Positions 42,832 through 62,416 of a stretch of DNA of 64,000 nucleotides are shown here, one piece after another. A program made the position numbers and the translations under genes. Under the pieces are notes generated by a model. The model saw nothing but the letters and a program-made list of their open reading frames with translations. It made no database searches and was not told the DNA's origin. The first letter of the stretch is position 1. Every line of letters begins with the position of its first letter. The DNA comes from Bradyrhizobium sediminis (GTDB taxonomy: Bacteria > Pseudomonadota > Alphaproteobacteria > Rhizobiales > Xanthobacteraceae), in NCBI RefSeq assembly GCF_018736105.1, contig NZ_CP076135.1, positions 434,001-498,000 on the forward strand, given 5' to 3'.

Positions 42832-43692
42832 ATGAAGTTCTGGCATATCAGCATCTCCCGCCGCTCGCTCACCATTGCCGCGGCCCTGGTCGGCGTGCTG
42901 TCGCTGGCGATCGGCGCCCATGCCGCGCTGAACAAGCGCGCGCTGGATGCGGCCAAGGCGATCGCCTCGGAGCAGGGCACTGATGCCGCCGGCAAGGCGT
43001 CCCGGATCGCGCTCGTCATCGGCAACGGCCATTATCCCGACGCCAATGCGCCGCTGGCCCAGCCGATCAATGACGCCCGCGCGCTGACCGCGAGCCTGCG
43101 CCAGTCCGGTTTCGACGTCGACGTCATCGAAGACGCCACCAAGGACGACATGCGCCGCGCCGTCGCCCGGATGAAATCCAAGATCAGGAAGGATTCCGTG
43201 GTGATGCTGTTCTTCGGCGGCTACGGCGTGCAGGCCGGCCGCGAGAGCTACATGATCCCGGTCGATGCCAAGATCTGGAAGGAATTCGATGTGCGCCGCG
43301 ACGGCGTCAGCGTCGAATCCGTGCTGTCGGCGATGAAGGAGCAGGGCGCCCGCGCCAAGCTCGTCGTGGTCGACGCCTCCCGCCGCAACCCCTATGAGCG
43401 CCGCTTCCGCGCCTATTCGCACGGCCTCGCCCCGATCGTCGCTCCCGACAACGCGCTGATCCTGTCCTCGGCCACGCCGGGCAAGGTCGCCGACGATTCG
43501 AAAGCGCCCAACAGCGTGCTGATGACCGAGCTGCTCACGCATCTCAACCCGGAGCTGACCGGCGTCGAGGCCGCCTTCAACAAGACCCGCATCGCCATCT
43601 CCCGCGCATCCGAAGGCGAGCAGGTGCCCTCGGTGTCGTCATCCCTGCTCGAAGACGTCACCTTCGCCGCCATGGCGAACGCCGGCAGCTGA
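42832..43692 (+). CDS. Caspase-like (C14) protein lacking both catalytic residues
   Basis: 286 residues with an N-terminal signal/anchor segment (LTIAAALVGVLSLAIGAHAA). The caspase fold is clear: RIALVIGNGHYPDANAPL, PINDARALTASLRQSGFDV, later SYMIPVD. The catalytic His of the usual GHG turn is Tyr131 (FFGGYGVQ) and the catalytic Cys of DAC is Ser183 (VVDASRRNPY), so it cannot act as a cysteine protease. It ends with conserved SRASEGEQVPSVSSSLLED. It is paralogous to the larger protein at 55904. Probably a periplasmic or membrane-attached scaffold or ligand-binding protein; an efflux-type adaptor gene follows on the other strand. Confidence 0.9.
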   Translation: MKFWHISISRRSLTIAAALVGVLSLAIGAHAALNKRALDAAKAIASEQGTDAAGKASRIALVIGNGHYPDANAPLAQPINDARALTASLRQSGFDVDVIEDATKDDMRRAVARMKSKIRKDSVVMLFFGGYGVQAGRESYMIPVDAKIWKEFDVRRDGVSVESVLSAMKEQGARAKLVVVDASRRNPYERRFRAYSHGLAPIVAPDNALILSSATPGKVADDSKAPNSVLMTELLTHLNPELTGVEAAFNKTRIAISRASEGEQVPSVSSSLLEDVTFAAMANAGS

Positions 43693-43739
43693 ACCCTTTT
43701 TCTCGTCGTCCCTGCGAACGCAGGCACTGATGCATTTTC

Positions 43740-43826
43740 CGTCATGCCCGGCCTTGTGCCGGGCATCCACGTCTTGACAGTGCCGCCGCAAAAACGTGGA
43801 TGGCCGGGACAAGCCCGGCCATGACG
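43740..43826. repeat. Palindromic intergenic repeat (CGTCATGCCCGG family)
   Basis: Begins CGTCATGCCCGGCCTTGTGCC and ends GACAAGCCCGGCCATGACG; inverted ends and two hairpin halves around ACGTCTTG. Related to 29535-29622. Located between the convergent pseudo-caspase and adaptor genes. Confidence 0.85.
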
Positions 43827-43860
43827 AAAGCGTTCATCTCGGAGAGCGACGGTTCCTGGC

Positions 43861-43908
43861 CTTCGTGGTTCGAGACGCGCAGCTTTGCTGCGCTCCTCAC
43901 CATGAGGG
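43861..43908. repeat. Short palindromic repeat (GGTTCGAGACGCGC...GCGCTCCTC)
   Basis: CTTCGTGGTTCGAGACGCGC, then AGCTTTGCTGCGCTCCTCACCATGAGGG. Related to 32328-32370 in inverse order. A typical Bradyrhizobium intergenic repeat. Confidence 0.7.
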
Positions 43909-43962
43909 TCTCCAGATCCTCACCCTTGAGGAGGCGCCAACGGGTCGCGCGAATGCGCGCCC

Positions 43963-44865
43963 CTACTTCTTCCCCTCCGCCGCCGACATCGCCACCGGCC
44001 GCACCGGATCGCCTTCGCGCAACAGCGCGCCGGCGCGGGCCACCACGGTGTCGCCTTCCTGCAGCCCCTCGCGGATTTCGACCTGGCCGGCCGACATCAG
44101 GCCGACTTCCACCCGCTTGGTCTCGACCCGCGACCGCCGCACCACCTGCACCACGGTGCCGGCCGAGCCGTAGAGGATCGCGGTCAGCGGCACCGAGATG
44201 CCGCAGCTCTGCCCGGTCTTGATCAGCGCGCGGCCGGATGAATTCACCAACAGCCGCCGCGGCAGCACCACCGACACGAACACCTGGCCGAGCTGGCTGT
44301 TGGGCTCGATGGTCGAGGCCACCCGCCGCACCTTGCCCTCGACCTCGCCGGCGCCGATGATCTTGATCCGCGCGGTCTGGTTGACCGCGAGCTTGGAAAT
44401 ATCCCGCACCGGCACCATGCCGACCAGGTCGAATTCGCTGCGCGCGATGATGGAAAACAATGCCTCGCCCTTGCCCCCTGCGATCGAGCCGATCACCGCC
44501 GAGGACGTCGAGATCAGCCCGGCCACCGGCGACTGCACCACCTGCATGCCGCCCTCGGGCAGCGCCAGCCGGGCCAGCGCCTGGCCGGCGGTGACGGTGT
44601 CGCCCGGCTCGGCCAGGATTTCGGAAACCTTCAGGCCCGGCCGCTCCGGCCGCACCGACGTCTCCTCCCGCGCGATCAGCACGCCGGAAACCTCGACAAT
44701 ATTGGCGAAACAGGCCTTGGCCGCCTTGAACACGGTGACCGCCGCGCCCTTCGGCGCCGCCTCGGGCTCCTCGGCGGCGAGCGCGGGGGAGGCGAGAAAG
44801 AGCAGGGCGGCGAGGGCCGGGGTGAGCAGCCTGCGTGAAAGGTAGGGCGCGGTGAGATGGTTCAT
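43963..44865 (-). CDS. Efflux-type periplasmic adaptor (HlyD/RND MFP family)
   Basis: 300 residues from the ATG at 44865, with a signal peptide (LLTPALAALLFLASPALA). The mature protein has the lipoyl-like half (GLKVSEILAEPGDTVTAGQALARL) and beta-barrel segments (VNQTARIKIIGAGEVEGKVR). It is paralogous to the adaptor at 53985: both share a Cys at residue 52 (ACF) and a second Cys in a SCG(I/V) block (residue 221 here, 227 there). No pump gene is adjacent to this copy, so it may serve the RND pump at 50854 or another partner. The gene lies convergent to the pseudo-caspase gene. Confidence 0.88.
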   Translation of the reverse strand: MNHLTAPYLSRRLLTPALAALLFLASPALAAEEPEAAPKGAAVTVFKAAKACFANIVEVSGVLIAREETSVRPERPGLKVSEILAEPGDTVTAGQALARLALPEGGMQVVQSPVAGLISTSSAVIGSIAGGKGEALFSIIARSEFDLVGMVPVRDISKLAVNQTARIKIIGAGEVEGKVRRVASTIEPNSQLGQVFVSVVLPRRLLVNSSGRALIKTGQSCGISVPLTAILYGSAGTVVQVVRRSRVETKRVEVGLMSAGQVEIREGLQEGDTVVARAGALLREGDPVRPVAMSAAEGKK

Positions 44866-45201
44866 CGGCGTTCCAGTCCCGGTTACTGGGGGACATCGAT
44901 ACCAGAAGGGCAGCTCGGACGCCAAGCGGTAGGTCCCCCTGCAGGTGAAGCGCCTACCCCTCGCCGTCATGGCCGGGCTTCATTCCTCCGGCGGAATTTC
45001 ATCCGTCCGAGCCGACGCGCTAAGCTGCCCCCGGCGCATCCAAGCTGAACGTTGGGCAGGGATGCGGTGGACGCGGAAGCCATCGCTCAGGACTCGAATC
45101 CTCCGAGCCGGGCATTCTACTTTGCATGGGGTCGTTTTGCGATTTTTTGTTGCGGCCCTGCGGCAGGCGCTGCGTCCGGGGCGGGAGGCGGCGCGCTCAA
45201 G
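44866..45201. other. Intergenic region, no gene found
   Basis: 336 bases between the adaptor start and the cyclase stop. It should hold the adaptor promoter, but no clear -35/-10 pair is visible. A tRNA T-loop-like stretch (GGACTCGAATCC, 45090-45101) does not belong to a complete cloverleaf. Confidence 0.4.
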
Positions 45202-47682
45202 TCACGACGGCAGCTTCCGTCGCCGGTCCGCGACCGGCACCTCTGCCGTCGCCGCCCCCGCCACGCCTTCCTCTTTCCAGCGCAAAATCTCCACCGCCAG
45301 GATCGGATGGTTGAAGCCCTTCAGCGTCAGGTCTTCCAGCTGCCGGCCTTCGGCCCATGGCTCGACCATGCCGAACACGCGCTGGCTGACCACGATCTGG
45401 CCGGCCTTGGCTTCGTCGCACAGCCGCGAGGCGAGGTTGGTGACGCTGCCGATCGCGGCGTATTCGAGCCGCTGCTCGAAGCCGATCTGGCCGAGCGTCG
45501 CGTAGCCGAGCGCGATGCCGACGCCGAAACCGAGGCTATGCCCGCGGTTGCGCCATTTCTGCGTCAGCTGGCCGATGGTGTCGCGCATCTCGACCGCCAT
45601 CTTCACCGCGCGCCTGACGTGATCGTCGAACTGGATCGGCGCGTTGAACAGGATCATCACGCCGTCGCCGGCATAGCGGTCGAGCGTGCCCTCGTAGCGG
45701 AAGATCAGCTCGCCGAGTGCTGCGTGATATTCGCGCAGCACGTTCATCGCCTCTTCCGGCTCGGTCGCCTCGGTGAAGGCGGTGAAGCCGCGCAGGTCGC
45801 AGAACACCACGGTGACTTCGCGGCGGTGGCTGTCGAGCAGCGAATCATGGCCGTCGGAGGAGGCGATCAGCTGCGCCACCTGCGGCGGCAGGAAGCGCTC
45901 CAGCCTCCGGATGCGCTCGATCTCGCCGAGCTGCTTCTCGACCCGCTCCTCCAGCGACTTGTTCCAGTTCTTGAGCTGCTCGGTTTGTTCCTGCAGTTTG
46001 GCCGCCTGTTGCTGCACGGTGGTGTGCGCCGTTTCCAGTTCACGGCCCTTCGCGTCGACTTCGGTGAACAGCCGCGCATTGCGCATCGCCAGCACCGACT
46101 GGTGCGCGAACGTCTTCATCAGCCCGATCAGGTTGGGCGAGAATTCGCCGGCCGCGCGGCGCAGCACCACCAGCGAGCCCAGGATGCCTTTCTGGTCGAC
46201 CAGCGGCACCACCAGCATCGAATGAAAGCCGGCCTCGGCCGCGACGTCATGCAACAGATGCTCGGCCGCGTTGGTGAGATCGGGAACGGCGATCGGCTCG
46301 CCCTGGCTGGCGGCCTGGCCGAGCACGCTGTTCTCCTGGTCGATCTGCAGATGCCGGCCCTCGGCCGCCTTGTCGATGCCGATGGCTTCAGAGAGGTTGA
46401 ACTGATGCCTGGTCGCGTCATAGCCGTAGATCAGCACCGCGTCGGCATGGGTGATTTCCAGCGCGCGGGCGGCGACCGTCGGCAGCACCGCGTTGAGATC
46501 GAGCGAGGACGACACCGCGCGGCCGACCTCCTCGAGCACCTTGAGCTCGTTGATCGAGCGCGCCAGGTCCCGCGTCCGCTCCTCAACCTTGGTCTCGAGG
46601 CCCTCATAGGTCTCCTGCAGCCGGCCGGCCATGCTGTTGAACTGGTCGGACAGTTCTTCCAGTTCGTCCTTGGTGTGCACCTCGATGCGGTGGCTGAAAT
46701 CGCCGGCGCCGAGCCGCCGTGCGCCGGCGCGCAAGGCGGTGATCGGAATCAGCATCCGGCGCGCCAGCACTGTGCCGGCGAGGATCGCAACCAGCAGGCC
46801 GAGCGCGATCAACAGCGCGCTCCGCACCAGCTGGTCGCGGATCGGCGCCAGCGCCTGCGCGGTCGGCTGCTCGAACAGCACGTACCAGCCGAGTTTCGGC
46901 ACCGCGTTCGACGCCGTCAGCACCGCCTGGCCGTCGATGCCGGTGCCCGAGGTGAGCGGCGCGCCGTCCGGCTTCAGCAGGGCGGCGACCTGCGGCAGTG
47001 CGGCGAGTTCCTTGCCGACCTCCGGGCCCTTCGAGCCCGCCAGCACCTGGCCGCGCGCGTCGACCACATAGGCGTAAGCGGCCTTGCCGACCTGGGCATC
47101 GCCGAGGAAATCGTTGAGGAAGCGCAGGTCGATCTCGGCCAGCGTCACCCCGGCGTTGAAGCCGGAATGCGACACCGCGATCGACATGAAGGGGCGCGAG
47201 CCGACGAAATAGGCCGGCGCGAAGATGACGCCCCTGGCAGCGGTTTCGGTAAAGCGGATGTCGCGGGAAAAATCGGCGCCGCCGGAGCTCACCGCGGTGC
47301 GGGTCAGCCGAAGCTGCTCGCGGCCGGCGCCGTTCAGGAACGAGAGCTGGCTGACGGCAGGCACCTGGTTTAACAGCTGGGCATAGTCGGCGCGGCGCTG
47401 CTCCAGCGTCCTGCTTTCGAGGCTCGAGGTCGCGCTGGCGCGGGTCACCCAGCTGATCTGCCGTTCCAGCTCCGAAATCGCCTGCTCGATCCGCAGCGCG
47501 GTGGCTTCCGCTTTCTCGCCCATCGCGTCGACCAGCGCGACCCGGGTGCCGCGGTAGCTGATCCAGGTCTCCATCGCGCCGTTGACGGCCAGCACGAACA
47601 CCACGAGCCCGACCAGCGCGGCGACGTATTTGGCGAACAGGCCTTCGCGGAGAAACCAGACTTTGTCCCTGACGCCGTTCAT
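45202..47682 (-). CDS. Membrane-bound class III nucleotide cyclase with Cache, HAMP and GAF domains
   Basis: 826 residues. Two membrane segments (about 17-36 and 288-310) enclose a Cache-type periplasmic domain; HAMP (about 310-365), GAF (about 385-540), a coiled coil (about 545-600) and a class III cyclase domain (about 620-800) follow. Metal-binding aspartates are about Asp629 (VVFCDLRGF) and Asp673 (AGDGVMILF). The adenine-selecting Lys is Arg (LDRYAGD) and the usual Asp of the GD-x-VN block is Ser (IGSVTNLASRL), so product specificity is uncertain. It probably makes cAMP in response to an external ligand; the Crp/Fnr gene at 50165 lies 2.5 kb away. Confidence 0.9.
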   Translation of the reverse strand: MNGVRDKVWFLREGLFAKYVAALVGLVVFVLAVNGAMETWISYRGTRVALVDAMGEKAEATALRIEQAISELERQISWVTRASATSSLESRTLEQRRADYAQLLNQVPAVSQLSFLNGAGREQLRLTRTAVSSGGADFSRDIRFTETAARGVIFAPAYFVGSRPFMSIAVSHSGFNAGVTLAEIDLRFLNDFLGDAQVGKAAYAYVVDARGQVLAGSKGPEVGKELAALPQVAALLKPDGAPLTSGTGIDGQAVLTASNAVPKLGWYVLFEQPTAQALAPIRDQLVRSALLIALGLLVAILAGTVLARRMLIPITALRAGARRLGAGDFSHRIEVHTKDELEELSDQFNSMAGRLQETYEGLETKVEERTRDLARSINELKVLEEVGRAVSSSLDLNAVLPTVAARALEITHADAVLIYGYDATRHQFNLSEAIGIDKAAEGRHLQIDQENSVLGQAASQGEPIAVPDLTNAAEHLLHDVAAEAGFHSMLVVPLVDQKGILGSLVVLRRAAGEFSPNLIGLMKTFAHQSVLAMRNARLFTEVDAKGRELETAHTTVQQQAAKLQEQTEQLKNWNKSLEERVEKQLGEIERIRRLERFLPPQVAQLIASSDGHDSLLDSHRREVTVVFCDLRGFTAFTEATEPEEAMNVLREYHAALGELIFRYEGTLDRYAGDGVMILFNAPIQFDDHVRRAVKMAVEMRDTIGQLTQKWRNRGHSLGFGVGIALGYATLGQIGFEQRLEYAAIGSVTNLASRLCDEAKAGQIVVSQRVFGMVEPWAEGRQLEDLTLKGFNHPILAVEILRWKEEGVAGAATAEVPVADRRRKLPS

Positions 47683-47804
47683 CCAGATCCTCGTGCGCTC
47701 CCCATCAGAGGTTTGCGCTCAGCCGGGCTGTGTTTAGCACAATTCGAGGGGGTTGGCCGGGCTGTCGGCCAGCGTGGTTAGCCGCCATTTTGGGCAGTTT
47801 TCTT

Positions 47805-47867
47805 CTCCCTCCCCCGCTAGCGGGGGAGGGCCGGGGTGGGGATACCGCGGCGGCGGTGGGGAGGTGA
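47805..47867. repeat. GC-rich palindromic repeat
   Basis: CTCCCTCCCCCGCTAGCGGGGGAGGG is a near-perfect hairpin followed by CCGGGGTGGGG, downstream of the AsmA-family gene. Same type as 27249-27374. Probable transcription end for that gene. Confidence 0.8.
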
Positions 47868-47872
47868 GAATG

Positions 47873-49948
47873 TCAGCGGTTGAACAATTGCCGCAGCACC
47901 TCGTTCATCGCCGGGCTGTCCTGCGGGGCTTGCGGGATGGTCTCGTTCTGCGGCGCAGGTGCCGGCGGCGCGGCCGGAACGGGGGAGCCCGGCGCGGGAA
48001 TGCTGCGGCCTTGGCTTGGGGCCTGGCTTGGGACCTGGCTTGGGACTTGGTTTGGACCTTGGCTTGAACCCTGGCCTGGCGGCGCTTGTCCGAGCCCCAG
48101 CCCGAGGCCCTGCTGGATCAGATTGCCGAGGGTTTCGCCGAGCTTGTCGGCCGACAAGCCGCCGCCGGCCGGTCCATCCGTGCCCAACCCACCGCCGGCG
48201 GTTCCGCCTCCGGTCAATCCGCCGAGCAGCCCGCCCAGGCCGCCGCCGTCCTTGCCGAACAGGCCCTTGCCCATCTCCTTGAGCTTGGCATAGGCGGCGT
48301 CCGGATTGTCGAGGATGCCGGCCATGTCGGGATAGATGCGCGGCTGCGCCCACGGCCCGTCGATCATCACGGGAATGCCGAGCCCGACCGGATCGGAGGC
48401 GCGGCCCTGGCCTTCGGTGGTCATCACCAGTTTCGGGTCGACCCGGAACGCGATCTGCTTGGTGCCGAGGTCGATGGTGCCGACGCCGGTCATCTTCACC
48501 AGCGGTCCCACCAAATTGAGATCGGTGGTGACGGCCTGGCCCTTGTCGATGCGGAACGAGGCGGACAATTGCGAGAGATCGGTGACCTGGTCCTGCTTCT
48601 CCTGCCAGCCCGACAGCGTGCCCGAGGTCAGCGAGCGGATCATCTTGGCGACGTTGAGCCCGATGATCGCGCCGTCCTGGAACACGACGAACGCCGTGCC
48701 ATTGAGGTTCGCCATGACGGCGCGCTGGCTCGAGCCGGTGGAGCGCACCGAGATTTTCGCCTGCATCTTGCCGTCGAGCTTGTCGAAATCGGCGGTGCTG
48801 GTCAGCAGCGGCAAGGCGCGGACGCCGGCAAGGTCGCCGCGCAGCGCGAAGCTCGGCTCGGCCGCGGCGGCGTCCGCGGTGACCTCGCCGCTGGCCTGGC
48901 CGCCATAGGCGCCGAGATTGGAAAACCGCACCTTCAGCACGCCGCTGCCGAGCGTGGCGTCGATCGCGGCCGGCGCGAAATGCGCTCCCGCGATGCTGAA
49001 TTCGGCGGCGGAAGCCCGCACCTGCGCGTCGACATAGTTCAGACCGCTGACGTCGAACGTCGTATTGCTCCAGGCCTGCGCGCCGGACGAGGGCGGCGCC
49101 TTGGCGCCTATGTCGAGCCGCTGGAAGTCGAGATCGAGCTTGACCAGCGGCTTGCTGGCGAGATCGACCGATGCCCAGCCGTTGAACGCGCCGTCGCCGA
49201 GCGTGCCGGACAGGCCGTTGATCATCACGGTCGAACCATTGAGCCGGACCTCGGCCTTGGCCGCCAGCGAGGCCTGCAACAGGCTGGGCGCCTCAAAGCC
49301 GATCTCGACCGGAATGTTCTGCCGTTCCAGCGGCGGTTGCGGCGCGGTGGCGCGGATGTCGAATTTGAGCGGATGGCCGCCGGTCTTCGCAGCGCCGGTG
49401 ATCTTGATCTTGCGGTCGGCGCCCATCCTCATCTCGGCGTCGATGCCGTCGATGCGATTTTCGACGCGGTCGCGCAGGTTGGAGAACACCACCGCGCCGC
49501 CGGTCACGGTGACGCGATCGATCGCGGCCTTGCCGGCTTCGCCCGGTGCGGCTGCGGGTTTGGCGGATGAAATCAGCTGTCCCGAGCGTTCGCGCAGCAG
49601 CGGCAAATGCAGCACCGGCTTGTCGATGACGAGTTCGGTGACTTGCGGGCGGCCCGACCACAGGCTCGACAGCGTCACGTCGGCCTGGAGGCTGCCGACG
49701 GTCAGGCGGCTCGCGCCGTTGCGGTCCTTGGGGTCCTGCAGCGTGACGTCGTTCAGCTTGACGTTGAGGGATGGCCAGATCCCGATCCTGGTGGCGCCGG
49801 CGATGGTCAGTTTGTAGCCGGTCTCGCGCTCCACCCGGGTCTGGATCTCCGACGTCAGGAATCCCGAGGGGCCGCCGACGATCAGCAGCAATGCCGCCAC
49901 CACGATCACGGCGGCGACGGCGGCTCCGGCGATTTTCAATGCTTTCAT
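47873..49948 (-). CDS. AsmA family protein
   Basis: 691 residues. One N-terminal membrane anchor (VAAVIVVAALLLIVGG) then a long beta-rich periplasmic region, with AsmA-like blocks near the N-terminus (WPSLNVKLNDVTLQDPKDRN) and C-terminal half (FQDGAIIGLNVAKMIRSL). The last 90 residues are Gly- then Pro/Gln/Ser-rich with short PSQV/PSQA-type repeats. AsmA/TamB-like proteins are bridge-like proteins thought to help lipid traffic between the membranes. The gene is divergent from the crp-like gene and shares its 216-base gap, which holds a CRP-like site. Confidence 0.9.
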   Translation of the reverse strand: MKALKIAGAAVAAVIVVAALLLIVGGPSGFLTSEIQTRVERETGYKLTIAGATRIGIWPSLNVKLNDVTLQDPKDRNGASRLTVGSLQADVTLSSLWSGRPQVTELVIDKPVLHLPLLRERSGQLISSAKPAAAPGEAGKAAIDRVTVTGGAVVFSNLRDRVENRIDGIDAEMRMGADRKIKITGAAKTGGHPLKFDIRATAPQPPLERQNIPVEIGFEAPSLLQASLAAKAEVRLNGSTVMINGLSGTLGDGAFNGWASVDLASKPLVKLDLDFQRLDIGAKAPPSSGAQAWSNTTFDVSGLNYVDAQVRASAAEFSIAGAHFAPAAIDATLGSGVLKVRFSNLGAYGGQASGEVTADAAAAEPSFALRGDLAGVRALPLLTSTADFDKLDGKMQAKISVRSTGSSQRAVMANLNGTAFVVFQDGAIIGLNVAKMIRSLTSGTLSGWQEKQDQVTDLSQLSASFRIDKGQAVTTDLNLVGPLVKMTGVGTIDLGTKQIAFRVDPKLVMTTEGQGRASDPVGLGIPVMIDGPWAQPRIYPDMAGILDNPDAAYAKLKEMGKGLFGKDGGGLGGLLGGLTGGGTAGGGLGTDGPAGGGLSADKLGETLGNLIQQGLGLGLGQAPPGQGSSQGPNQVPSQVPSQAPSQGRSIPAPGSPVPAAPPAPAPQNETIPQAPQDSPAMNEVLRQLFNR
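48012..48075 (-). repeat. Degenerate 15-bp tandem repeat in the AsmA gene
   Basis: Several units resembling GGCTTGGGACCTG in tandem on the plus strand encode Pro-Ser-Gln-type repeats in the C-terminal tail of the AsmA-family protein. Likely to vary in length between strains. Confidence 0.65.
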
Positions 49949-50081
49949 CTCGACATTCCAGACCGGGCCAGCTGCGCGCGAATTCGGCCCGGCCGTAGCG
50001 GCGGGCCTTGTGGTTGAGCTTATCCCGGAAGGGGAAACCGCTCAAAGCCAGTAAAAATAGTCCGGGGGTGCTGCAAAGTTA

Positions 50082-50097
50082 TGTGACATATGACACA
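50082..50097. promoter_or_regulatory. CRP-like site upstream of the crp-like gene
   Basis: TGTGACATATGACACA has a consensus TGTGA left arm and ACACA as right arm (one base from TCACA), around a CATATG palindrome. It is 67 bases upstream of the crp-like gene start and 133 bases from the divergent AsmA start. Suggests autoregulation. Confidence 0.6.
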
Positions 50098-50164
50098 CTT
50101 CACAGGCCACAAGCTTCGCTAACGGTTATTTTGTCGATCTCGAATCCCTCTGGAAGGCATTGCA

Positions 50165-50839
50165 ATGAGCAAAGCGGCCGAATTTGCGGTCATTCTCAAG
50201 ATGAATCCGATGTTCGCGGACTTGGGTTCCGACGAATTGCAGCGAATCTCAAGCCTCTGCCACACCCAGCACCTCGGGGTGGGCGAGATGCTGTTCCAGA
50301 AGGGTGACGCCGGCGACGCCCTGTTCGGGGTCCGGCGCGGGCAAATCCGCATCGAGACCGGAGCATCGGACGGCAGCCGCCTGACCCTGAACTTTCTCGG
50401 CCCCGGCGACCTGTTCGGCGAGGTCGCGGTGCTCGACGGCCAGAGCCGCACCGCGGACGCCACCGCCGGCGAGCCCACCGAACTGTTCGTGCTGCGGCGC
50501 GAGGATTTTCTCAGTTTTCTCGAACGCGAGCCCCGCGTCGCGGTCAAGATCATCGCGCTGTTGTGCCAGCGCATCCGCTGGATGAGCGAGCGGATGGAGG
50601 AATCGATGCTGCAGCCGCTGCCGGTGCGGCTGGCGCGCCGGCTCTGCGCGCTGTCGTCCGATTTCGGCTCCGAGGTGCACATCTCGCAGGAGCAGCTCGG
50701 CGTGTTCGTCGGCGCCGCGCGCGAGAGCGTCAACCGTCAACTGCAGCTGTGGCGCAAGGACGGCATCCTGGACCTGCAGCGCGGCCGCATCCTGCTGCAG
50801 AACATGACCAAGCTGACGGCGGTGGCAAGGAACGAGTAG
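50165..50839 (+). CDS. Crp/Fnr family transcriptional regulator
   Basis: 224 residues. The cyclic-nucleotide-binding domain (about 1-125) contains GDLFGEVAVLDGQSRTADATA, in which the Gly-Glu and Arg-Thr of a cAMP-binding cassette are present. A long dimer helix follows, then the winged helix (SQEQLGVFVGAARESVNRQL). No iron-sulphur cysteine cluster of FNR type is seen. It probably binds cAMP. GGAAGG precedes the ATG. A CRP-like site lies 67 bases upstream, and a nucleotide cyclase gene at 45202. Confidence 0.92.
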   Translation: MSKAAEFAVILKMNPMFADLGSDELQRISSLCHTQHLGVGEMLFQKGDAGDALFGVRRGQIRIETGASDGSRLTLNFLGPGDLFGEVAVLDGQSRTADATAGEPTELFVLRREDFLSFLEREPRVAVKIIALLCQRIRWMSERMEESMLQPLPVRLARRLCALSSDFGSEVHISQEQLGVFVGAARESVNRQLQLWRKDGILDLQRGRILLQNMTKLTAVARNE

Positions 50840-50853
50840 GGCGATAACGGCGC

Positions 50854-53800
50854 CTACTCCGCCGCGGGTGAATGCACGATGGCCGGCGGCGGCTTGTGGT
50901 CGCCCGGCGGCTGCTCGTTCTCGCCGCTGGAGACCAAGAGTTTCCTGCCGAAGCGCCAGATCAGCGCGCCGAGATCGTCCATCATCATGAACATCGCCGG
51001 CACGAACACCAAGGACAGTACGGTGGAGAACACCAGTCCGCCGATCACGGCGAGCGCCATTGGCGAGCGGAATTCGCCGCCGGCGCCGAATGCCAGCGCG
51101 GACGGCATCATGCCGGCCGCCATCGCGATGGTGGTCATGACGATCGGGCGCGCGCGCTTGATGCCGGCGTCGATGATCGCAAATTCGCGCGGATTGCCCT
51201 CGCGGATCGATTCGACCGCGAATTCCACCAGCATGATGGCGTTCTTGGTGACGATGCCCATCAGCATCAGGATGCCGATCCACACCGGCGTCGTCAGCTG
51301 CTTGCCGGTCAGGAGCAGCGCCGCGATGGCGCCGCCGATCGAGAGCGGCAACGAGAACAGGATGGTGATCGGCTGCAGGAAGGTGCCGAACAGCAGCACC
51401 AGCACCGCATAGACCATCATCAACCCGGTGGTGATCGCGGTGGCAAAGCCTTCCGACAGTTCGTTCAGGCTTTCGGCGTCGCCCGACGGGCTGACCTTCA
51501 CGCCCTTGGGCAGGCTCTTCATCACCGGCAGGTCGTAGATCAGCTTGGTGGCGTCGCCGAGCGCGGCGGAGCCGACGAGGTCGGCCGCCACCGTGGCCTG
51601 GCGTTCCCGGTCGTAGCGGTTGATGCTGGTCGGGCCCTGATCGAGCTTGATGTCGGCGACGACGGAGAGCGGCACGCCGCCCTTCTCGCCGCGCTGGCCG
51701 AGCGGCACCCGCAACTGTTCGAGGATTTGCAGGTCGCCGCGCGCGGCGTCCTCGAGCTGCACGCGGACCGGCACCAGCCGGCCGCCGGCGTCGAATTTCG
51801 CCAGCGCCGGGCCGACGTCGCCGATGGTGGCGACCCGGATGGTCTGCGACAGGCTCTCGGTGGAGACGCCGAGTCTTGCTGCGAGCTCGGCCCGCGGCTG
51901 GATGCGAAGCTCGGGCCGGTCGAGCGAGGTTTCGGAGATCACGTTGGCGACGATCGGAATCCGTTTCATCTGCGTCGCCAGCTCGCTGGCGACGTTGCCG
52001 ACGATGTTGCTGTCGACGCCGGTGACCACCAGCGAGATCGCGCGCAAGCCGTTTTCGTCGAGGAACCAGAATCGGATGTCGGGAACGCTTTCGAGGTCGC
52101 CCGAGATCGCCAGCTCGAGTTCGCGCTGGGTGATCTTGCGGTCGGCCTTCGGCGTGTAGTTGATGATCAGGGCGGCGCGGCGCACCTCGAAGGTGCCGGG
52201 CGGCACGCGGCCGCCGTCGACGAATATGCTCTTGATCTCGGGCCGCTTGCGCAGGCGCGTGACGATCTCCTCGGTGACCTTCTCGGTGTAGGCGAGCTGC
52301 GAGCCCGGCGGCAGCTCCATCGCCAGCAGCGAGCGCGCGGTGTCCTGTGCCGGCAGGAAGCCCTGCGGCAACAGCGTGATGCTCCAGATCGAGGCGGCGA
52401 AGATGCCGAAACCGGCCAGCACGGTGATGAAGTAATGCTTCACCGACCAGGTGACGAGCCGCGTATAGGTTTGCAGGATGCGCCCCGGCGGCGGGTCTTC
52501 GTGCGGATGATCCTTCAGGAAATAGGCCGCCAGCACCGGCGTGACGAAGCGCGCGGCGAGCAGCGAGAAGAACACCTGCACCGACACCGTGATGCCGAAT
52601 TGCTTGAAGAATTGCCCGGCGATCCCCGACATGAAGCTTGCGGGCGCGAAGATCGCGATGATGGTGAGCGAGATCGCGATGACGGCGAGGCCGATCTCGT
52701 CGGCGGCCTCCAGCGCGGCGCGATACGGCGACTTGCCCATCCGCATGTGGCGCACGATGTTCTCGATTTCGACGATGGCGTCGTCGACCAGAATGCCCGT
52801 CGACAGCGTGATGGCGAGGAAGCTGACGAGGTTCAGCGAGAATCCGAGGAGGTCCATCGCCCAGAACGCCGGGAAGATCGACAGCGGCAGCGAGATCGCG
52901 GCGATGATGGTGGCGCGGATGTCGCGCAGGAACAGCAGCACGACGATGACGGCGAGGATGGCGCCTTCGAACAAGGTCGAAATCGCGGCTTCATAATTGC
53001 CCTTGGTGAATTCCACCGAGGTGTCGATCAGCTTGAGGTCGACGTCGGGATAGGCAACCTTGAGCGCATCGATGCGCTTCTGCACGGCCGCGGCGACCAC
53101 CACGTCGCTGGCGCCCTTGGAGCGCTTGATGCCGAGCGCCACCACGGGCTCGCCGTTCAGGCGCGCGAAGGTCCGGCGATCGGCGATGGTGTCGGTGACG
53201 GTGCCGAGATCGTCAAGACGAACCTCGCCGCCGCCGAACAGCGGGATCATGGTGCCGGCGAGATCGTTGAGGGTCTTGGCGCCGGCGAGCGTGCGGATCG
53301 CCTGGTCGTTCTTGCCGATCTCGGCGCGGCCGCCGGCGAGGTCGACATTGGTGCCGCGCAGGATCTGGCTGACATTGACGGCGGTCAGCCCGGCGGCCTG
53401 CAGCCGGTCGGGATCGAGCGACACCAGGATCTCGCGCTCGACACCGCCGATGCGCTCGACCTGGGCGACGCCGCGCACGCCCTGCAGCGCGCGTTTGACG
53501 ACGTCGTCGACGAAATAGGACAATTGCTCGGGCGTCTTGCCGGGCGAGATCGCGGCATAGGTGACGATCGGCAGGCCGATCACGTCGACGCGCTGGATCA
53601 GCGGCTCGTTGACGTTCTGCGGCAGGTTGGCGCGCACGCGGGTGACGGCGTCCTTGACGTCGTTCAGCGCGCGGTCGGTGTTGGTTTCGAGCGCGAACTG
53701 GATCGTGGTCAGCGACAGCCCGTCCGTGATCGAGGATGAGATATGCCGCACGCCCTCGACGCCGGAGACGCCGTCTTCGATGGTCTTGGTGACCTGCGAC

Positions 53801-53985
53801 TCCAGCTCGGCCGGCGCCGCGCCGAATTGCGAGACCGCAACCGAGATCACGGGGATGTCGGCGCTCGGCAGCCGCGTCACCGCGAGCTTGGTGAAGCTGA
53901 CCCAGCCCAGCACCAGCAGGATGATCGAGAAGACGATCGAGGGGAGCGGGTTCCGGATCGACCAGGCCGAGATATTCAGAGCCAT
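50854..53985 (-). CDS. RND family efflux transporter permease (AcrB type)
   Basis: 1043 residues, 12 membrane segments in two repeats with large periplasmic loops. The proton-relay residues are seen in GILVDDAIVEIEN (Asp pair, TM4) and GIVTKNAIMLVEFA (Lys, TM10). N-terminal LPSADIPVISVAVSQFGAAP is typical of the family. It exports drugs, metals or lipids across the envelope with an adaptor and an outer-membrane channel. Its start overlaps the stop of the adaptor gene (53985-54899) by one base (TGATG). No channel gene is in the window. Confidence 0.95.
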   Translation of the reverse strand: MALNISAWSIRNPLPSIVFSIILLVLGWVSFTKLAVTRLPSADIPVISVAVSQFGAAPAELESQVTKTIEDGVSGVEGVRHISSSITDGLSLTTIQFALETNTDRALNDVKDAVTRVRANLPQNVNEPLIQRVDVIGLPIVTYAAISPGKTPEQLSYFVDDVVKRALQGVRGVAQVERIGGVEREILVSLDPDRLQAAGLTAVNVSQILRGTNVDLAGGRAEIGKNDQAIRTLAGAKTLNDLAGTMIPLFGGGEVRLDDLGTVTDTIADRRTFARLNGEPVVALGIKRSKGASDVVVAAAVQKRIDALKVAYPDVDLKLIDTSVEFTKGNYEAAISTLFEGAILAVIVVLLFLRDIRATIIAAISLPLSIFPAFWAMDLLGFSLNLVSFLAITLSTGILVDDAIVEIENIVRHMRMGKSPYRAALEAADEIGLAVIAISLTIIAIFAPASFMSGIAGQFFKQFGITVSVQVFFSLLAARFVTPVLAAYFLKDHPHEDPPPGRILQTYTRLVTWSVKHYFITVLAGFGIFAASIWSITLLPQGFLPAQDTARSLLAMELPPGSQLAYTEKVTEEIVTRLRKRPEIKSIFVDGGRVPPGTFEVRRAALIINYTPKADRKITQRELELAISGDLESVPDIRFWFLDENGLRAISLVVTGVDSNIVGNVASELATQMKRIPIVANVISETSLDRPELRIQPRAELAARLGVSTESLSQTIRVATIGDVGPALAKFDAGGRLVPVRVQLEDAARGDLQILEQLRVPLGQRGEKGGVPLSVVADIKLDQGPTSINRYDRERQATVAADLVGSAALGDATKLIYDLPVMKSLPKGVKVSPSGDAESLNELSEGFATAITTGLMMVYAVLVLLFGTFLQPITILFSLPLSIGGAIAALLLTGKQLTTPVWIGILMLMGIVTKNAIMLVEFAVESIREGNPREFAIIDAGIKRARPIVMTTIAMAAGMMPSALAFGAGGEFRSPMALAVIGGLVFSTVLSLVFVPAMFMMMDDLGALIWRFGRKLLVSSGENEQPPGDHKPPPAIVHSPAAE

Positions 53986-54899
53986 CAGCGCACCCGTACC
54001 CGATCGAGTTCCTCGGCGAACATGGTCTTGATCTGGTCGCCGTCATGCAGCGAGGTGCCGGCGTCGGCCACGACGATTTCGCCGACGTCGAGGCCCTCGA
54101 GGATTTCCGTCGAAGTATCGGACACCAGTCCGACCTTCACTTTGCGTGTCTCGATGGTGTTTCCCTTCACCACCTGCACGGTCAGATGGTCGATGGCGGT
54201 GCGCGGAATGGCGACGCCGCAGCTGCGCTTGGCGTCGATGTTGGCGCGGGCAAACATGCCGATCTTGAGCGACGGGTTATTGGTCAGCGAGATCCGGATG
54301 TGGCCGAGCTGGGTGCTGCGGTCGATCTGCGGCGAGACCAGCCGCACGCGCCCGATCAGGTCGGGCACGTTGTCCCGGCTGACGCGCGCCGACGCGCCGG
54401 GATTGAGTTTCAGCATGTGGATCGCCGGTACTTCGGCATCCAGTTCGATTTCGTTGTTGACGGAGATCCGGAACATCGGCCCGGCTTGCGGCGAAGCGGG
54501 CGCGCCGGCGATGGTCCTGACTTCGGTGACGAGGCCGGCCGCCGGGGCGCGCAGCACCGTCGGCCCGGGTCGTCCGCCGGCCTGCTGAGGCGGCGGTGTC
54601 AGCCGCGCCAGTTCCTGATTCTCGGTGACCATGTCGCCTTCGCGGACCAGCACCTCGGAAACCCTGGAGCCTTCCTGTTCGACGCCGACCACCGCTTCCC
54701 GGCGCGGCACGATGAAGCCGGTGACCCGCACCATGTCGGAGAAACAGGCGTTGGTGGTTTTGGTGACGATGACGAGGGCGTTGGACGGGGTGTCTTTTTC
54801 CTCAGGCCGCGGACGGTGCTCGAACCAGTAGTATCCGGCCCCCAGCACGACAACGACGACCACGCCGATCGCAGGTTTGAGATATTCGGAGAGCTTCAT
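53985..54899 (-). CDS. RND efflux periplasmic adaptor
   Basis: 304 residues with an N-terminal membrane anchor (AIGVVVVVVLGAGYYW) and no cleavage site. Lipoyl-like half SRVSEVLVREGDMVTENQEL and a beta-barrel domain are present, with a Pro/Gly-rich insertion at about 102-114. It is a paralogue of the adaptor at 43963, with matching cysteines (residues 52 and 227). Coupled by a one-base overlap to the RND pump, so these two are partners. An OmpA-like gene lies upstream, separated by a repeat and a hairpin. Confidence 0.93.
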   Translation of the reverse strand: MKLSEYLKPAIGVVVVVVLGAGYYWFEHRPRPEEKDTPSNALVIVTKTTNACFSDMVRVTGFIVPRREAVVGVEQEGSRVSEVLVREGDMVTENQELARLTPPPQQAGGRPGPTVLRAPAAGLVTEVRTIAGAPASPQAGPMFRISVNNEIELDAEVPAIHMLKLNPGASARVSRDNVPDLIGRVRLVSPQIDRSTQLGHIRISLTNNPSLKIGMFARANIDAKRSCGVAIPRTAIDHLTVQVVKGNTIETRKVKVGLVSDTSTEILEGLDVGEIVVADAGTSLHDGDQIKTMFAEELDRVRVR

Positions 54900-54950
54900 C
54901 GCCGGATCAATCCAGACCTATCGGGTGGGACGGGTGGAGACGCTTTTATA

Positions 54951-55000
54951 GCGTTTTCCAGCGAAGTGGATACCGGCTCGCGCCAGGAAAATGCGTCAAA
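54951..55000. repeat. Bradyrhizobium-type repeat (GCGTTTTC...AACGCGTCAAA)
   Basis: GCGTTTTCCAGCGAAGTGGATACCGG followed by a partly inverted end (AAAATGCGTCAAA). The same element is at 58546-58596. I recall this sequence as a very frequent intergenic repeat in Bradyrhizobium genomes. Confidence 0.8.
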
Positions 55001-55009
55001 TAAACACGG

Positions 55010-55042
55010 AGCCTCCGATCCGATCTGGTCGGAACGGAGGCT
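55010..55042 (-). terminator. Probable terminator of the OmpA-like gene
   Basis: AGCCTCCG / CGGAGGCT (8-bp perfect stem) 35 bases downstream of the OmpA-like stop, followed on the minus strand by a modest T-rich stretch (GTGTTTATTTG). The loop is long (17 bases), so strength is uncertain. Confidence 0.5.
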
Positions 55043-55077
55043 GCAGCCGCAAAACTCTACCCGGCACCACAATTCAC

Positions 55078-55737
55078 TTACTTGGATGCGGTGGTCGTGC
55101 TCGCCATGTTGACGACCTGTACGCGGCGGTTCACTTCCGCGAGCGGGTGGCCGGGATCCTTGAGCTTGCTCTTGCCGTATCCGACGGTCACGAGGTCAGC
55201 GCCGGCAATGCCGAACTTGTCGGTCAGGTAGCGCTTGATCGAGTCGGCGCGGCGTTCGGAGAGGTCTTGATTGTACGCCTCGCCGCCGGCGGCGTCGGTA
55301 TGGCCTGCCACCACGAAGGTCGAGCCCTTCAGATCGGGATTGGAAAGGGCCTTTCCGAGGGCCTGAACCGAGGGCAGCGACTTGGCGCTGATGTCGGCCG
55401 AGTTGTAATCGAAGGTGATTTCCAGATCGATATTCGGCTTGTCCTTGGCGAGGGTGGCGATTTCCTCGCGCTCGTTGACCGACAGCGAACGCGAGGGCCG
55501 GCCACGGATCTTCTGGACAAAGCGTCCTTCCTCGGCGCTGACCGCCGGGTCGACCTTCGGACCCACCGAGAGGCCGCGGGTCAGCGGCTTCTTGGCCGGC
55601 GCAAGCGCGCGGACGATCTGATCCTCGGTGACATCCTCGGCGGCGACGGCCTTCGCCATTCCGAAAGAAAGCGCGGCGCCGATCGTCACGATCGAAAGGA
55701 TTGCGGTGAGATTTTTCCTTCCAGACATCTTGGTCAT
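55078..55737 (-). CDS. OmpA family protein
   Basis: 219 residues from the ATG at 55737 (GGAGGG site); a signal peptide follows (LTAILSIVTIGAALSFGMAKAVA). The C-terminal OmpA-like peptidoglycan-binding domain is clear: FVVAGHTDAAGGEAYNQDLS and ERRADSIKRYL, then RRVQVV. There is no N-terminal beta-barrel, so it is probably a periplasmic protein bound to the cell wall. It lies between the pseudo-caspase-TPR gene and the adaptor gene on the same strand. Confidence 0.92.
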   Translation of the reverse strand: MTKMSGRKNLTAILSIVTIGAALSFGMAKAVAAEDVTEDQIVRALAPAKKPLTRGLSVGPKVDPAVSAEEGRFVQKIRGRPSRSLSVNEREEIATLAKDKPNIDLEITFDYNSADISAKSLPSVQALGKALSNPDLKGSTFVVAGHTDAAGGEAYNQDLSERRADSIKRYLTDKFGIAGADLVTVGYGKSKLKDPGHPLAEVNRRVQVVNMASTTTASK

Positions 55738-55903
55738 TGCCAGTCCCTCCTGCGCTGTCGGCGCGGTTCCAATCGATGCTCGATGAGCCGCCGGACAGAT
55801 CGGGCGGAGCCCGGCCACCTCCCGGCGTGGCTACTTCCTTGGGTTTGTCTCTGGCGCCTGCCTGGGGGTTCGAGGCCGCGCCGGCCCCTTACTCAAATAA
55901 TCG

Positions 55904-57382
55904 TTAACGTACCCCGTAACTCGCGAATTCCTTGACAATATTCGGATCCATGGCCTTGGCATTGGATATATCCAATTCGCCCTCGGAAATCGAGCCGTTT
56001 CGCTGCTTGGCGAGGCCGCGCCCGTACAGCGACGAGGTCAATCGCGGGTTGATCTTGAGGGCGGCGTCGAAATCAGCAATTGCATTCTTGGTCTGCCCGC
56101 TCTTCAGGTTGACGAGACCGCGGCTGTCGAGGGCATCGACAAAGTTCGGGCGCAGCCGCAGCGCTTCGTTGCAATCCTTCAGGGCGGCCTGCAGGTCGCC
56201 GATCACGGTGCGGGCCCAGCAGCGGTTGTTATAGGCTTCCACGTCCTTGGGGTTGAGCCGCAGCGAGTTGTCGAAGTCCTTGATGGCAAGGCTGTAGGCG
56301 CCCTTGCTGGCATAGACCTGCCCGCGCCGGTACAGCGCGCCGGCGTCGTCGGGATTGGCGGCGAGCTTCTGGGTCAGGCTCTTGATGGTCGGGTCATCGG
56401 CCAGCGCGACGGCGGTCGGCCCTTCGGCCGGCTTTTCAGGCGGAGCGAGGGTGACTTCGGCCGGCTTGGGCGGCTGCGGCAGCGCCGGCGTCTCGACCCG
56501 CGGCGGCGGTGGCGGTTCGACGCGCGGCAGCGGCGGGGGAGCGACCTGGGGAGCGGCTTGAGGCGGTGCCGGAGGAGTTGCCGGGGGTAACGCCGCCACC
56601 GGACCCGGGGCGGCCGGCTTGGCGCCGGTGCCCGGGATGAAGGAAAAATCCTCGGCCAAAGAGGAGGAGATCCACGGCACCTGTTCGCTGCGGGAGGCGC
56701 GGGTGACGCCGACGCGGGTGCGATTGAGGGTTTCCTCGGCCATCAGGTCGGGAACGCGAATTTCCTTGAGCAATTCCCGCACGAACAGGCTGCGGTCGCT
56801 GCCATTGTCGCTGACCACCGAAGAGAGCGCGGCCGAATACATCACCAGCGTTCCGTTCGGCGCAATCACAGGCGCCAGCCCCGCGGAAAAGCTGCGGAAC
56901 CGGCGCTCGAACGGGTTGCGTCTGGAGGCGTCGATCAAGGCGATCTTGACCCCGGCGCCGCGGCTGTTGATTTCGCCCAGCACCGTCTCCAGGCTGAAGC
57001 CGTCGCGGCGAACGTCCGGCTCGGTCCAGATCTGGGCATCGACCGGAATCATGTAGCTCTGGCGGCCGGACTGCACGCCGAATCCGCTGAAGAACAGCAA
57101 CACCACCGAGCCGGGCTTGATCCGTCCGTAAAGCTTGTCGAAGGCGCGCCGCATCGCGTCGCCGGTCAGATTTTCCCCGACCTCGACGCTGAAGCCGTCG
57201 CGCTTGAGTTCGTCGGCGATGGCGCGGGCGTCGTTGATCGGTTCCTTGAGCGGCGCCTCGGCGTCGGGATATTTCGCGTTGCCGATGACAAGTGCAAAGC
57301 GCTCCGCGCCCGCAGCGACCGACGGGACAATCGGGATAACCGACAAAACCGAAATCAGAAATAATGCGATGCGGATTTTCAT
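55904..57382 (-). CDS. Pseudo-caspase with proline-rich linker and TPR repeats
   Basis: 492 residues from the ATG at 57382, with a signal peptide (IALFLISVLSVIPIVPSVAAG). A caspase-like domain (about 25-250) has the same layout as the protein at 42832; the catalytic His is Phe101 (FFSGFGVQ) and the Cys is Ser153 (LIDASRRNPF). It ends in SRSEQVPWISSSLAED as in the paralogue. Residues about 253-325 are Pro-rich. Residues about 345-480 hold four TPR units (ALYRRGQVYASKGAYSLAIK and so on). It is probably a periplasmic scaffold. It heads a run with OmpA, adaptor and RND genes. Confidence 0.92.
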   Translation of the reverse strand: MKIRIALFLISVLSVIPIVPSVAAGAERFALVIGNAKYPDAEAPLKEPINDARAIADELKRDGFSVEVGENLTGDAMRRAFDKLYGRIKPGSVVLLFFSGFGVQSGRQSYMIPVDAQIWTEPDVRRDGFSLETVLGEINSRGAGVKIALIDASRRNPFERRFRSFSAGLAPVIAPNGTLVMYSAALSSVVSDNGSDRSLFVRELLKEIRVPDLMAEETLNRTRVGVTRASRSEQVPWISSSLAEDFSFIPGTGAKPAAPGPVAALPPATPPAPPQAAPQVAPPPLPRVEPPPPPRVETPALPQPPKPAEVTLAPPEKPAEGPTAVALADDPTIKSLTQKLAANPDDAGALYRRGQVYASKGAYSLAIKDFDNSLRLNPKDVEAYNNRCWARTVIGDLQAALKDCNEALRLRPNFVDALDSRGLVNLKSGQTKNAIADFDAALKINPRLTSSLYGRGLAKQRNGSISEGELDISNAKAMDPNIVKEFASYGVR

Positions 57383-57505: not shown

Positions 57506-57734
57506 ATTGCGACAATTAACCGCGACAAGGCGGGGGAATAAACCGTGACACGGATTGGCGGTCCCGTGATCGCGGGTTGCGGGTGCGTTGCAGCGGGCAG
57601 GGCTGGGGGATCAGGCGCATGGCGGGTCCTCCTGCGGCGCGACCGTGGAGCCGCCGCGAACCATCCGGTTTGACCTTTCGGATCGGCGGTGGCTTGGTGC
57701 CGCGATCGGAAAATCAGGAAGAAAAGTACAGCCG

Positions 57735-58541
57735 ATGGGAAACGCCTACGAGATCTACGCCCTGCGCTATGCGACGATGTCGCCGCGCACCCCCCACATG
57801 AACTACCTGCTGCCGGATCCCCACGAAACCACGGCGCAAGACCTCGATTATTTCGTCTGGCTGATCCGCGGAAACGGTCGCGATATTCTGGTCGACACCG
57901 GTTTCAATGCGGAAGAGGCGCAGGCGCGCGGCCGCAGGCTCACGCTCAATCCGGTCGATGCGCTGGCGCGCTTCGGCGTTGACGCCGGCGCCATCAGGGA
58001 TGTCGTCGTCACGCATCTGCATTACGATCACGCCGGCAATCTCGATCGCTTCCCCAATGCGCGGTTTCATCTGCAGGACCGCGAGATGAGCTATGCGACC
58101 GGGCGCTGCATGTGCCAGGGCCTGCTGCGGCATCCGTTTTCGGTGGAGCACGTCACGCTGATGGTGCGGCATGTCTTCAGCGAGCGCGTCACCTTCCACA
58201 ACGGCGATGGCGAGGTCGCGCCCGGTGTGACGCTGCATCGGGTCGGCGGCCACTCCGACGGCCTGCAGGTGGTGCGGGTCGAGACCGCGCGCGGCCCGGT
58301 GGTGCTGGCGTCGGACGCCTCGCATTACTACGGCAACATGCATCGCCGCAGCCCGTTCCCGATCATCTATAATCTCGGCGACATGTTCGAGGGCTGGGAT
58401 ATCGCGCAGCGCCTTGCCGGTCATCCCGATCGCGTCATTCCCGGCCATGATCCCCTGGTCTGCGACATCTATCCGCGCGCCGGCGACAACGCCGACGCAT
58501 TTGCCCTGCATCTGCCGCCGTCACGTTCCTTCGTCAAATAA
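57735..58541 (+). CDS. MBL-fold hydrolase, N-acyl homoserine lactonase-like
   Basis: 268 residues from the ATG at 57735; the open frame runs further upstream without similarity. Metal-binding motif THLHYDHAGNL is intact, with later ligands in VGGHSDG, ASDASHYY and VIPGHD. Length and spacing fit the AttM/AiiB lactonase-type branch, which opens lactone rings. No quorum-sensing genes lie nearby, so the true substrate may be another lactone, perhaps of the downstream pathway. The gene is upstream of a dehydrogenase with the Bradyrhizobium repeat between. Confidence 0.88.
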   Translation: MGNAYEIYALRYATMSPRTPHMNYLLPDPHETTAQDLDYFVWLIRGNGRDILVDTGFNAEEAQARGRRLTLNPVDALARFGVDAGAIRDVVVTHLHYDHAGNLDRFPNARFHLQDREMSYATGRCMCQGLLRHPFSVEHVTLMVRHVFSERVTFHNGDGEVAPGVTLHRVGGHSDGLQVVRVETARGPVVLASDASHYYGNMHRRSPFPIIYNLGDMFEGWDIAQRLAGHPDRVIPGHDPLVCDIYPRAGDNADAFALHLPPSRSFVK

Positions 58542-62169: not shown

Positions 62170-62397
62170 ATGGCATTATCTACCTCTTCGAATTTCGCCA
62201 AGCCCGACGATGCGTTTCGCGCCGTGGTCGAAGCACATCGCGGGCTGACCGACGATCAGAGCGCCGATCTCGACGCGGCGCTGGTCCTCATTCTGGCCAA
62301 TCACATCGGCGATCTCGCCGTGCTGCGCGAAGCGATTTCGCTGGCGCAGCGGCGGATGGCGGATGCGAGCCAGCAACAACAGCAACAACAGCAGTAA
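62170..62397 (+). CDS. DUF2783 family small protein with polyglutamine tail
   Basis: 75 residues from the ATG at 62170. The core (AHRGLTDDQSADLDAALVLI, then LANHIGDLAVLREAI) matches what I recall as DUF2783, a family found beside aromatic monooxygenases and homogentisate dioxygenase. The C-terminus is eight Gln codons, CAA and CAG mixed, an unusual tail that could vary in length. It starts 10 bases after the monooxygenase stop, so it is co-transcribed. Possibly an accessory subunit for that enzyme. Confidence 0.8.
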   Translation: MALSTSSNFAKPDDAFRAVVEAHRGLTDDQSADLDAALVLILANHIGDLAVLREAISLAQRRMADASQQQQQQQQ

Positions 62398-62416
62398 CGC
62401 AAAGGGAATGGAATTG

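Follow-up and report, generated by a model that had tools for sequence, protein, structure and literature searches.

Two caspase-fold proteins encoded in a 64,000-nucleotide stretch of the Bradyrhizobium sediminis genome (contig NZ_CP076135.1 of assembly GCF_018736105.1, positions 434,001 to 498,000 of the forward strand; the whole stretch analysed is called the window) belong to one clade that has lost both catalytic residues, and one of them is linked, far beyond the window, to the genes of an RND pump. The proteins are denoted P1 (286 residues, 42832..43692, plus strand) and P2 (492 residues, 55904..57382, minus strand); coordinates are those of the window. Sequence, the predicted fold of P1, the single loss of the catalytic residues, gene order and co-occurrence form the basis of the reading preferred here, that P2 may be a periplasmic protein that cuts nothing and serves an RND envelope system as scaffold or sensor, for which we judge the chances to be about even. 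A wider version, in which P1 and P2 would be dedicated periplasmic subunits holding together or reporting on an OmpA–adaptor–RND–adaptor assembly, is possible but distinctly doubtful. We know of no earlier caspase-fold part of an efflux system.

Both reading frames were found to be open at these coordinates, and the products matched Pfam family PF00656 with 131.2 bits (P1) and 125 bits (P2) at a cut-off of 21.4. The fold is that of the MALT1 paracaspase, as predicted for P1 by structure modelling, and membership of the C14 caspase fold, already assigned in a preliminary description of this DNA made from the sequence alone, was obtained by profile and by fold. When P1 and P2 were aligned with the ten further C14 proteins that this genome encodes, Tyr131 of P1 and Phe101 of P2 fell in the His column and Ser183 and Ser153, respectively, in the Cys column; a profile alignment places the same columns on the His of the G-H-G and the Cys of the D-M-C motif of MALT1. 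The replacements named in the preliminary description were confirmed in both alignments, and a dyad located elsewhere was seen in neither. The conserved blocks that it listed as shared are present, except that P1 has GEQVP instead of SEQVP. P1 and P2 are 53% identical to one another and at most 36% identical to any of the other ten proteins, nine of which carry His and Cys and the tenth Tyr/Ala. P1 and P2 lack the His–Cys dyad of active orthocaspases and contain a p20 domain with a substituted dyad, as is characteristic of pseudo-orthocaspases; with its Phe/Ser (FS) dyad and C-terminal tetratricopeptide repeats (TPRs), P2 is of the FS–TPR type. From the lost dyad we infer that both proteins are proteolytically inactive. 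The Tyr/Ala protein (L011, G000:C1:1214176-1214841) is a third pseudo-orthocaspase of this genome, with an 889-residue frame and long proline-rich repeats, and its dyad was lost separately from that of the P1/P2 clade.

C14 domains were extracted from fetched loci and aligned for tree calculation (loci and genomes are cited below by L and G numbers). Domains gapped at either catalytic column were left out (four in the set for the first tree). The first tree was built from P1, P2 and 110 domains out of 196 distinct ones (thinned at 85%), 112 rows in all; the second, a quick tree with wider sampling, comprised 85 of 232 distinct domains plus P1 and P2. In the careful 112-row tree 47 pseudo-enzyme rows form one group (support 100/100) with no His–Cys (HC) row inside; its stem is 1.05 changes per column long, and within it the P1 types and the P2 types each occupy their own subclades. 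The quick tree again grouped the pseudo-enzyme rows, 46 in number, with an SH-aLRT value of 99 and no HC row inside. A long-branched HC row, L010, joins just outside the clade, and its placement shifts between the trees. Because a single clade without an HC member was recovered, both catalytic residues were lost once, before the duplication that gave P1 and P2. The parallel loss proposed earlier is contradicted by both trees, which give P1 and P2 one shared dead ancestor.

Clade membership was assigned to domains with at least three residues of a five-residue signature and, in addition, to two Tyr/Ala domains placed by tree (L243 and L244). Six HC domains score two of five and none three; the signature was picked from the clade itself, so that its good match there is in part a consequence of the choice. 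After gapped domains had been dropped, the 232 distinct domains consisted of 153 of the clade, 73 HC domains and six other pseudo-enzymes, which fall in two further lineages, one of them with L011. The search for intact homologues in the same group gave 0 of 153. The clade dyads, written with the His-column residue first, are FS 84, YS 45, YA 15, HA 3, LA 2, IS 1, FA 1, VS 1 and IA 1, Phe and Tyr interchanging at the His column within the clade. The rule that YS means no TPR and FS means TPR fails in the clade as judged by frame lengths only: 27 of the 45 YS frames have at least 420 residues, and the P1-type domains include FS ones.

Around the dead site several residues have been kept or gained (positions in P1 numbering). 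Asp81 is present in 151 of the 153 clade domains and its column is that of a MALT1 residue which we take to be part of the S1 pocket; MALT1 cuts after Arg. The Asp222 column holds Asp or Glu in 145 domains. Arg137 occurs in 146 clade domains, against Gly in 70 of the 73 HC domains, and Arg185 in 144, against Asn or Asp in 72 of the 73; Trp149 is found in 151. Glu189 is present in all 153 clade domains and in nine of the 73 HC domains. Since the nearest HC rows (L178–L180), which read DACRNNPFERRFR, already contain Glu189, Arg190, Arg191 and Arg193, these four are probably older than the loss. Arg137, Trp149 and Arg185 are, on the aligned domains, tied to the dead clade. Despite the lost dyad the domain is kept under constraint, which bears out this part of the preliminary interpretation. 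A shaped surface has been preserved around the dead site, and it may bind a basic stretch. That the proteins are instead unusual hydrolases, with the Ser183 column supplying a new nucleophile, is very improbable: Ser does occupy this column in 131 of the 153 domains, but the remaining 22 have Ala, and no base is at hand, as 150 domains have Phe (85), Tyr (60), Ile (2), Leu (2) or Val (1) in the His column and only three have His. Column 183 never has anything but Ser or Ala, and 145 of the 153 domains carry Phe or Tyr in column 131; a catalytic serine is therefore unlikely.

Beyond the C14 match Pfam, searched without a separate p10 model, gave no further domain for P1 and TPRs alone for P2, where a proline-rich linker and the TPRs follow the caspase domain as first described. 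Both proteins look exported, also in accordance with that description. By reading, P1 has at its N-terminus a signal or anchor, a hydrophobic stretch that resembles a twin-arginine signal and closes with AHA, and P2 has a Sec-like signal peptide. The motif RRx[LF] was found within the first 25 residues in 83 of the 120 best P1 homologues among the matches listed, and a Tat signal is likely, although not universal, in the P1 family.

We infer export, binding without cleavage, the identity of the partners and a role as scaffold or sensor. P1 and P2 represent one clade of probably secreted pseudo-orthocaspases in which both catalytic residues were lost once and duplication came afterwards. P2 is the pump-linked form, its gene being grouped with those for OmpA and for the adaptor and permease of an RND system. 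It would most likely reside in the periplasm, where its dead caspase domain would bind a partner without cutting it, perhaps at a basic stretch given the retained S1-type Asp81; another protein would be bound by the TPRs, and the OmpA protein would anchor the assembly to peptidoglycan. P1 is the TPR-less, perhaps membrane-held paralogue beside the second adaptor.

The order in the window, on the minus strand, is P2, OmpA, HlyDb, RND. The OmpA-domain protein (55078..55737, minus strand; signal peptide by reading) has its ATG 166 bp past the P2 stop, the start codon being assigned by reading. HlyDb, an RND periplasmic adaptor, lies at 53985..54899 (minus strand), and its stop overlaps the start of the RND permease (TGATG). 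The permease (ACR_tran, 50854..53985, minus strand) has MdtB as its best solved match. A second RND adaptor, HlyDa (43963..44970, minus strand; start probably near 44865, by reading), is convergent with P1 and 36% identical to HlyDb, so that each pseudo-orthocaspase does have a related adaptor gene nearby, as had been remarked.

Neighbours were counted in other loci by tblastn with the window proteins, a procedure that can miss diverged neighbours. A set of 80 named loci, mostly from Bradyrhizobium, Tardiphaga, Rhodopseudomonas and Nitrobacter, overlaps slightly with the other loci (L118/G026, L139/G019, L137/G028, L120/G744; L208 repeats L047). Where a named locus extended at least 5 kb behind P2, HlyDb and RND were found in 66 of 67 cases and OmpA as well in 62. 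The extra diverged P2 copy L141 is without OmpA, adaptor and RND behind it; no OmpA was found behind P2 in L093, L124, L127 and L139, and in L127 and L139 it lies in front. The other, more varied loci gave 42 P2-type rows, 24 of them with at least 5 kb behind, and HlyDb with RND in 17 of the 24. Next to P1, HlyDa was found to be convergent in 16 of 20 loci, and a protein of about 578 residues is encoded divergently in each of the 19 loci that offer 1.5 kb of space; a few of the loci duplicate another, their genome having been fetched twice. In Tardiphaga loci HlyDb, RND and HlyDa stand in a row with P1 convergent to HlyDa. The P2–OmpA–HlyDb–RND order recurs in a second family (f42: L197, L198 and L245), at identities of 37–48% for P2 and 71–75% for RND; in L242 the clade gene is placed after RND. 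With these exceptions, P2 stands in a conserved cluster with the adaptor and RND genes, as expected of an accessory part. The additional diverged P2-like paralogue represented by L067 and L141 occurs in some Bradyrhizobium genomes.

A passenger gene, in which the inherited order would carry no functional meaning, is improbable on the whole. The named loci come mostly from Bradyrhizobium and its relatives and their counts are therefore not independent, but the order persists in the second family despite the low P2 identity, and in genus g128 a close RND was never seen without an adjoining clade gene. It is also unlikely that P2 is a decoy or activator of an intact orthocaspase, binding its substrates or the enzyme and so tuning its cutting, in the manner of the inactive human caspase-8 homologue cFLIP, which is described in the main text of PMC6426788. 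An intact His–Cys C14 gene was located no more than 6 kb from P2 in two of the 80 named loci and in 13 of the 42 other P2 rows; in L243 and L244 intact genes also adjoin the second copies, and the B. sediminis genome itself has nine intact C14 proteins. In 78 of the 80 named loci (some short), however, no such gene was seen over this distance while the pump genes persist, none is present in the 64 kb window, and several of the 13 other rows come from related genomes. The intact orthocaspases found within 6 kb of P2 (L045, L047, L048, L052, L054, L125, L131, L220 and others) have frames of about 450–810 residues, several with an OmpA gene nearby.

Co-occurrence of the clade with a close RND was then counted in genome sets; the family and order samples share genomes, and none of the figures is corrected for kinship. 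A close RND was defined by at least 64% identity in the family and 71% in the order and in genus g128, cuts that were set after gaps had been seen in the lists (64 to 59%; 71 to 61 or 60%). Clade membership was taken as at least 200 bits in the 61-genome set (gap from 209 to 137) and by the A1 profile score in the sets of 297, 198 and 99 genomes. Clade and RND occur in the same 17 of 61 family genomes and in the same 12 of 297 genomes of the order. Among 198 family genomes a close RND is present in 66 of the 69 that bear the clade and in none of the 129 that do not (Fisher p = 1.6e-49). The three clade-bearing genomes without it are G658, G671 and G744, and the contig of G744 ends inside HlyDb. 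With one clade row used per genome, 54 of the 66 have the clade gene and RND on one strand and at most 6 kb apart, and in 51 the clade gene comes first. The other 12 are six genomes of genus g10, five with RND at or near a contig end (G011, G716, G692, G723, G748), and G229. In G660, which is one of the 54, P1 is the RND-linked clade gene and P2 is only a remnant. Among 99 genomes of g128 a clade-level score was obtained in 24 and an RND of at least 71% identity in 16, all within those 24; the remaining 75 have neither. In these 16 the clade gene lies at most 3.3 kb from RND on the same strand, and in front in 15. The g128 clade scores reach down to 239 bits, HC rows of other families reaching 262; dyads were seen for 11 of the 24 genomes and none is HC.

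The same 61 family genomes bear on the photosynthetic role that PMC6426788 proposes in its main text for pseudo-orthocaspases. The reaction-centre family PF00124 was found in six of the 17 clade-bearing genomes versus three of the 44 others (Fisher p = 0.011). It is missing from the other 11 clade-bearing genomes, including that of B. sediminis, three of the nine PF00124 genomes are without the clade, and Nitrobacter-named loci carry P2. Photosynthesis as a general role of the clade is not borne out by this distribution, and for P1 and P2 we regard it as scarcely credible. The pump link points instead to envelope transport, and it names partner genes.

Several observations weigh against P2 as a scaffold or sensor of the pump. 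Seven of the 24 other loci (L059, L060, L065, L067, L210, L212 and L223) have neither adaptor nor RND behind P2; L065 does contain an RND nearby, but on the opposite strand, and the extra P2-like copies L067 and L141 lie away from the pump. G671 retains OmpA with P2 and shows no pump, G658 is without a close RND, and G660 has lost the P2 caspase part yet retains the pump. The six g10 genomes carry the clade gene and RND on different contigs, some of them long. Eight of the 24 clade-bearing g128 genomes are without a close RND, and in six of these (L236–L241) the clade gene stands beside Crp and cyclase genes; the seven dyads seen among the eight are all Tyr/Ala or Leu/Ala. For P2 the model is weak in the caspase half (mean pLDDT 65.7), leaving the pocket unreadable. 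A possible hairpin between OmpA and HlyDb could split the transcript. The latter, at about 55010–55042 with stems of about 14 bp, was noted by eye as a possible terminator or attenuator and is not among the results of the hairpin scan.

The L236–L241 arrangement suggests another reading, that the clade is part of an envelope-sensing cyclic-nucleotide circuit (Crp and a sensor cyclase) of which the pump is one output only. Both genes adjoin the clade gene in all six g128 genomes examined, a cyclase lies near P2 and the adaptor in L216 and L217, Crp adjoins adaptor and RND in L222, L224, L225, L227 and L228, and both genes are present in the window. There, however, Crp is about 5 kb and the cyclase about 8 kb from P2, and nucleotide binding by the Crp protein is putative; we consider the circuit decidedly unlikely. 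The window genes are a Crp-type regulator, recurrent near the pump or clade members (50165..50839, plus strand), and a dCache-HAMP-GAF class III nucleotidyl cyclase, recurrent near clade members (45202..47682, minus strand). The link of P2 to envelope transport genes, as the preliminary description had suggested, extends far beyond the window; the scaffold role is putative.

Further genes lie nearby. An AsmA-family protein (47873..49948, minus strand) is encoded between RND and HlyDa in Bradyrhizobium. The conserved protein of about 578 residues divergent from P1 (40642..42378, minus strand) was found in 15 of the 61 genomes of the family, and all but one of these 15 bear the clade. It gave no Pfam match up to an E value of 5 and one match in the PDB, at an E value of 1, which is not credible; it holds the sequence PDCDTTA, which is reminiscent of a terpene cyclase motif. 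Metallo-β-lactamase-fold genes were noted near P2 at 57588–58541 and 62363–63370, the product of the former giving weak, below-cut-off matches to N-acylhomoserine lactone (AHL) lactonases.

Pseudo-orthocaspases of this kind are already in print, and the preliminary term 'undescribed' has to be given up: Rhizobiales proteins with such dyads and architectures are treated in the main text of PMC6426788. Klemencic et al. (2019) counted 858 bacterial pseudo-orthocaspases, 561 of the 582 alphaproteobacterial ones being in Rhizobiales, where the commonest dyads are YS, YA and FS; FS proteins consistently carry TPRs and YS or YA proteins mostly have no identifiable further domain (PMC6426788, main text). 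P1 (YS), P2 (FS–TPR) and L011 (YA) match these groups. Clades of pseudo-orthocaspases are taken there and in PMC3501461 as a sign of conserved function, and two Asp residues of the specificity pocket are described as strongly conserved. Asplund-Samuelsson et al. (2012; PMC3501461) reported dyad substitutions and OmpA in 14 predicted metacaspase operons. The main text of PMC6426788 makes no mention of operon, efflux or OmpA, and the text of PMC3501461 none of efflux or RND. A link between a caspase fold and an RND pump was likewise absent from the titles and abstract starts found, a search that excluded subscription papers, preprints and supplements. Within the literature searched, no tested function of alphaproteobacterial pseudo-orthocaspases was found, the published guess being photosynthesis. 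Relative to the texts of PMC6426788 and PMC3501461, the single loss, the interchange of Phe and Tyr, Arg137, Trp149 and Arg185, and the link to OmpA, adaptor and RND are added here; the pump link was not found in print in these sources. In P1 and P2 there is a clear case of catalytic residues lost once, after which the protein was long retained, was duplicated and acquired new fixed residues.

Loss of SyOC, the pseudo-orthocaspase of Synechocystis PCC 6803, leads to higher oxidative-stress tolerance according to the abstract of PMC7889975. SyOC is likewise a bacterial pseudo-orthocaspase, but it is cyanobacterial, and that abstract is without a pump link. The MALT1 paracaspase is a relative of P1 and P2 in fold and sequence and differs in retaining the His and Cys that both have lost. 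TriABC is an RND pump with two adaptors. The gene set described here resembles TriABC-like pumps in combining one RND with two different nearby adaptor genes and, unlike them, also has an OmpA protein and a dead caspase.

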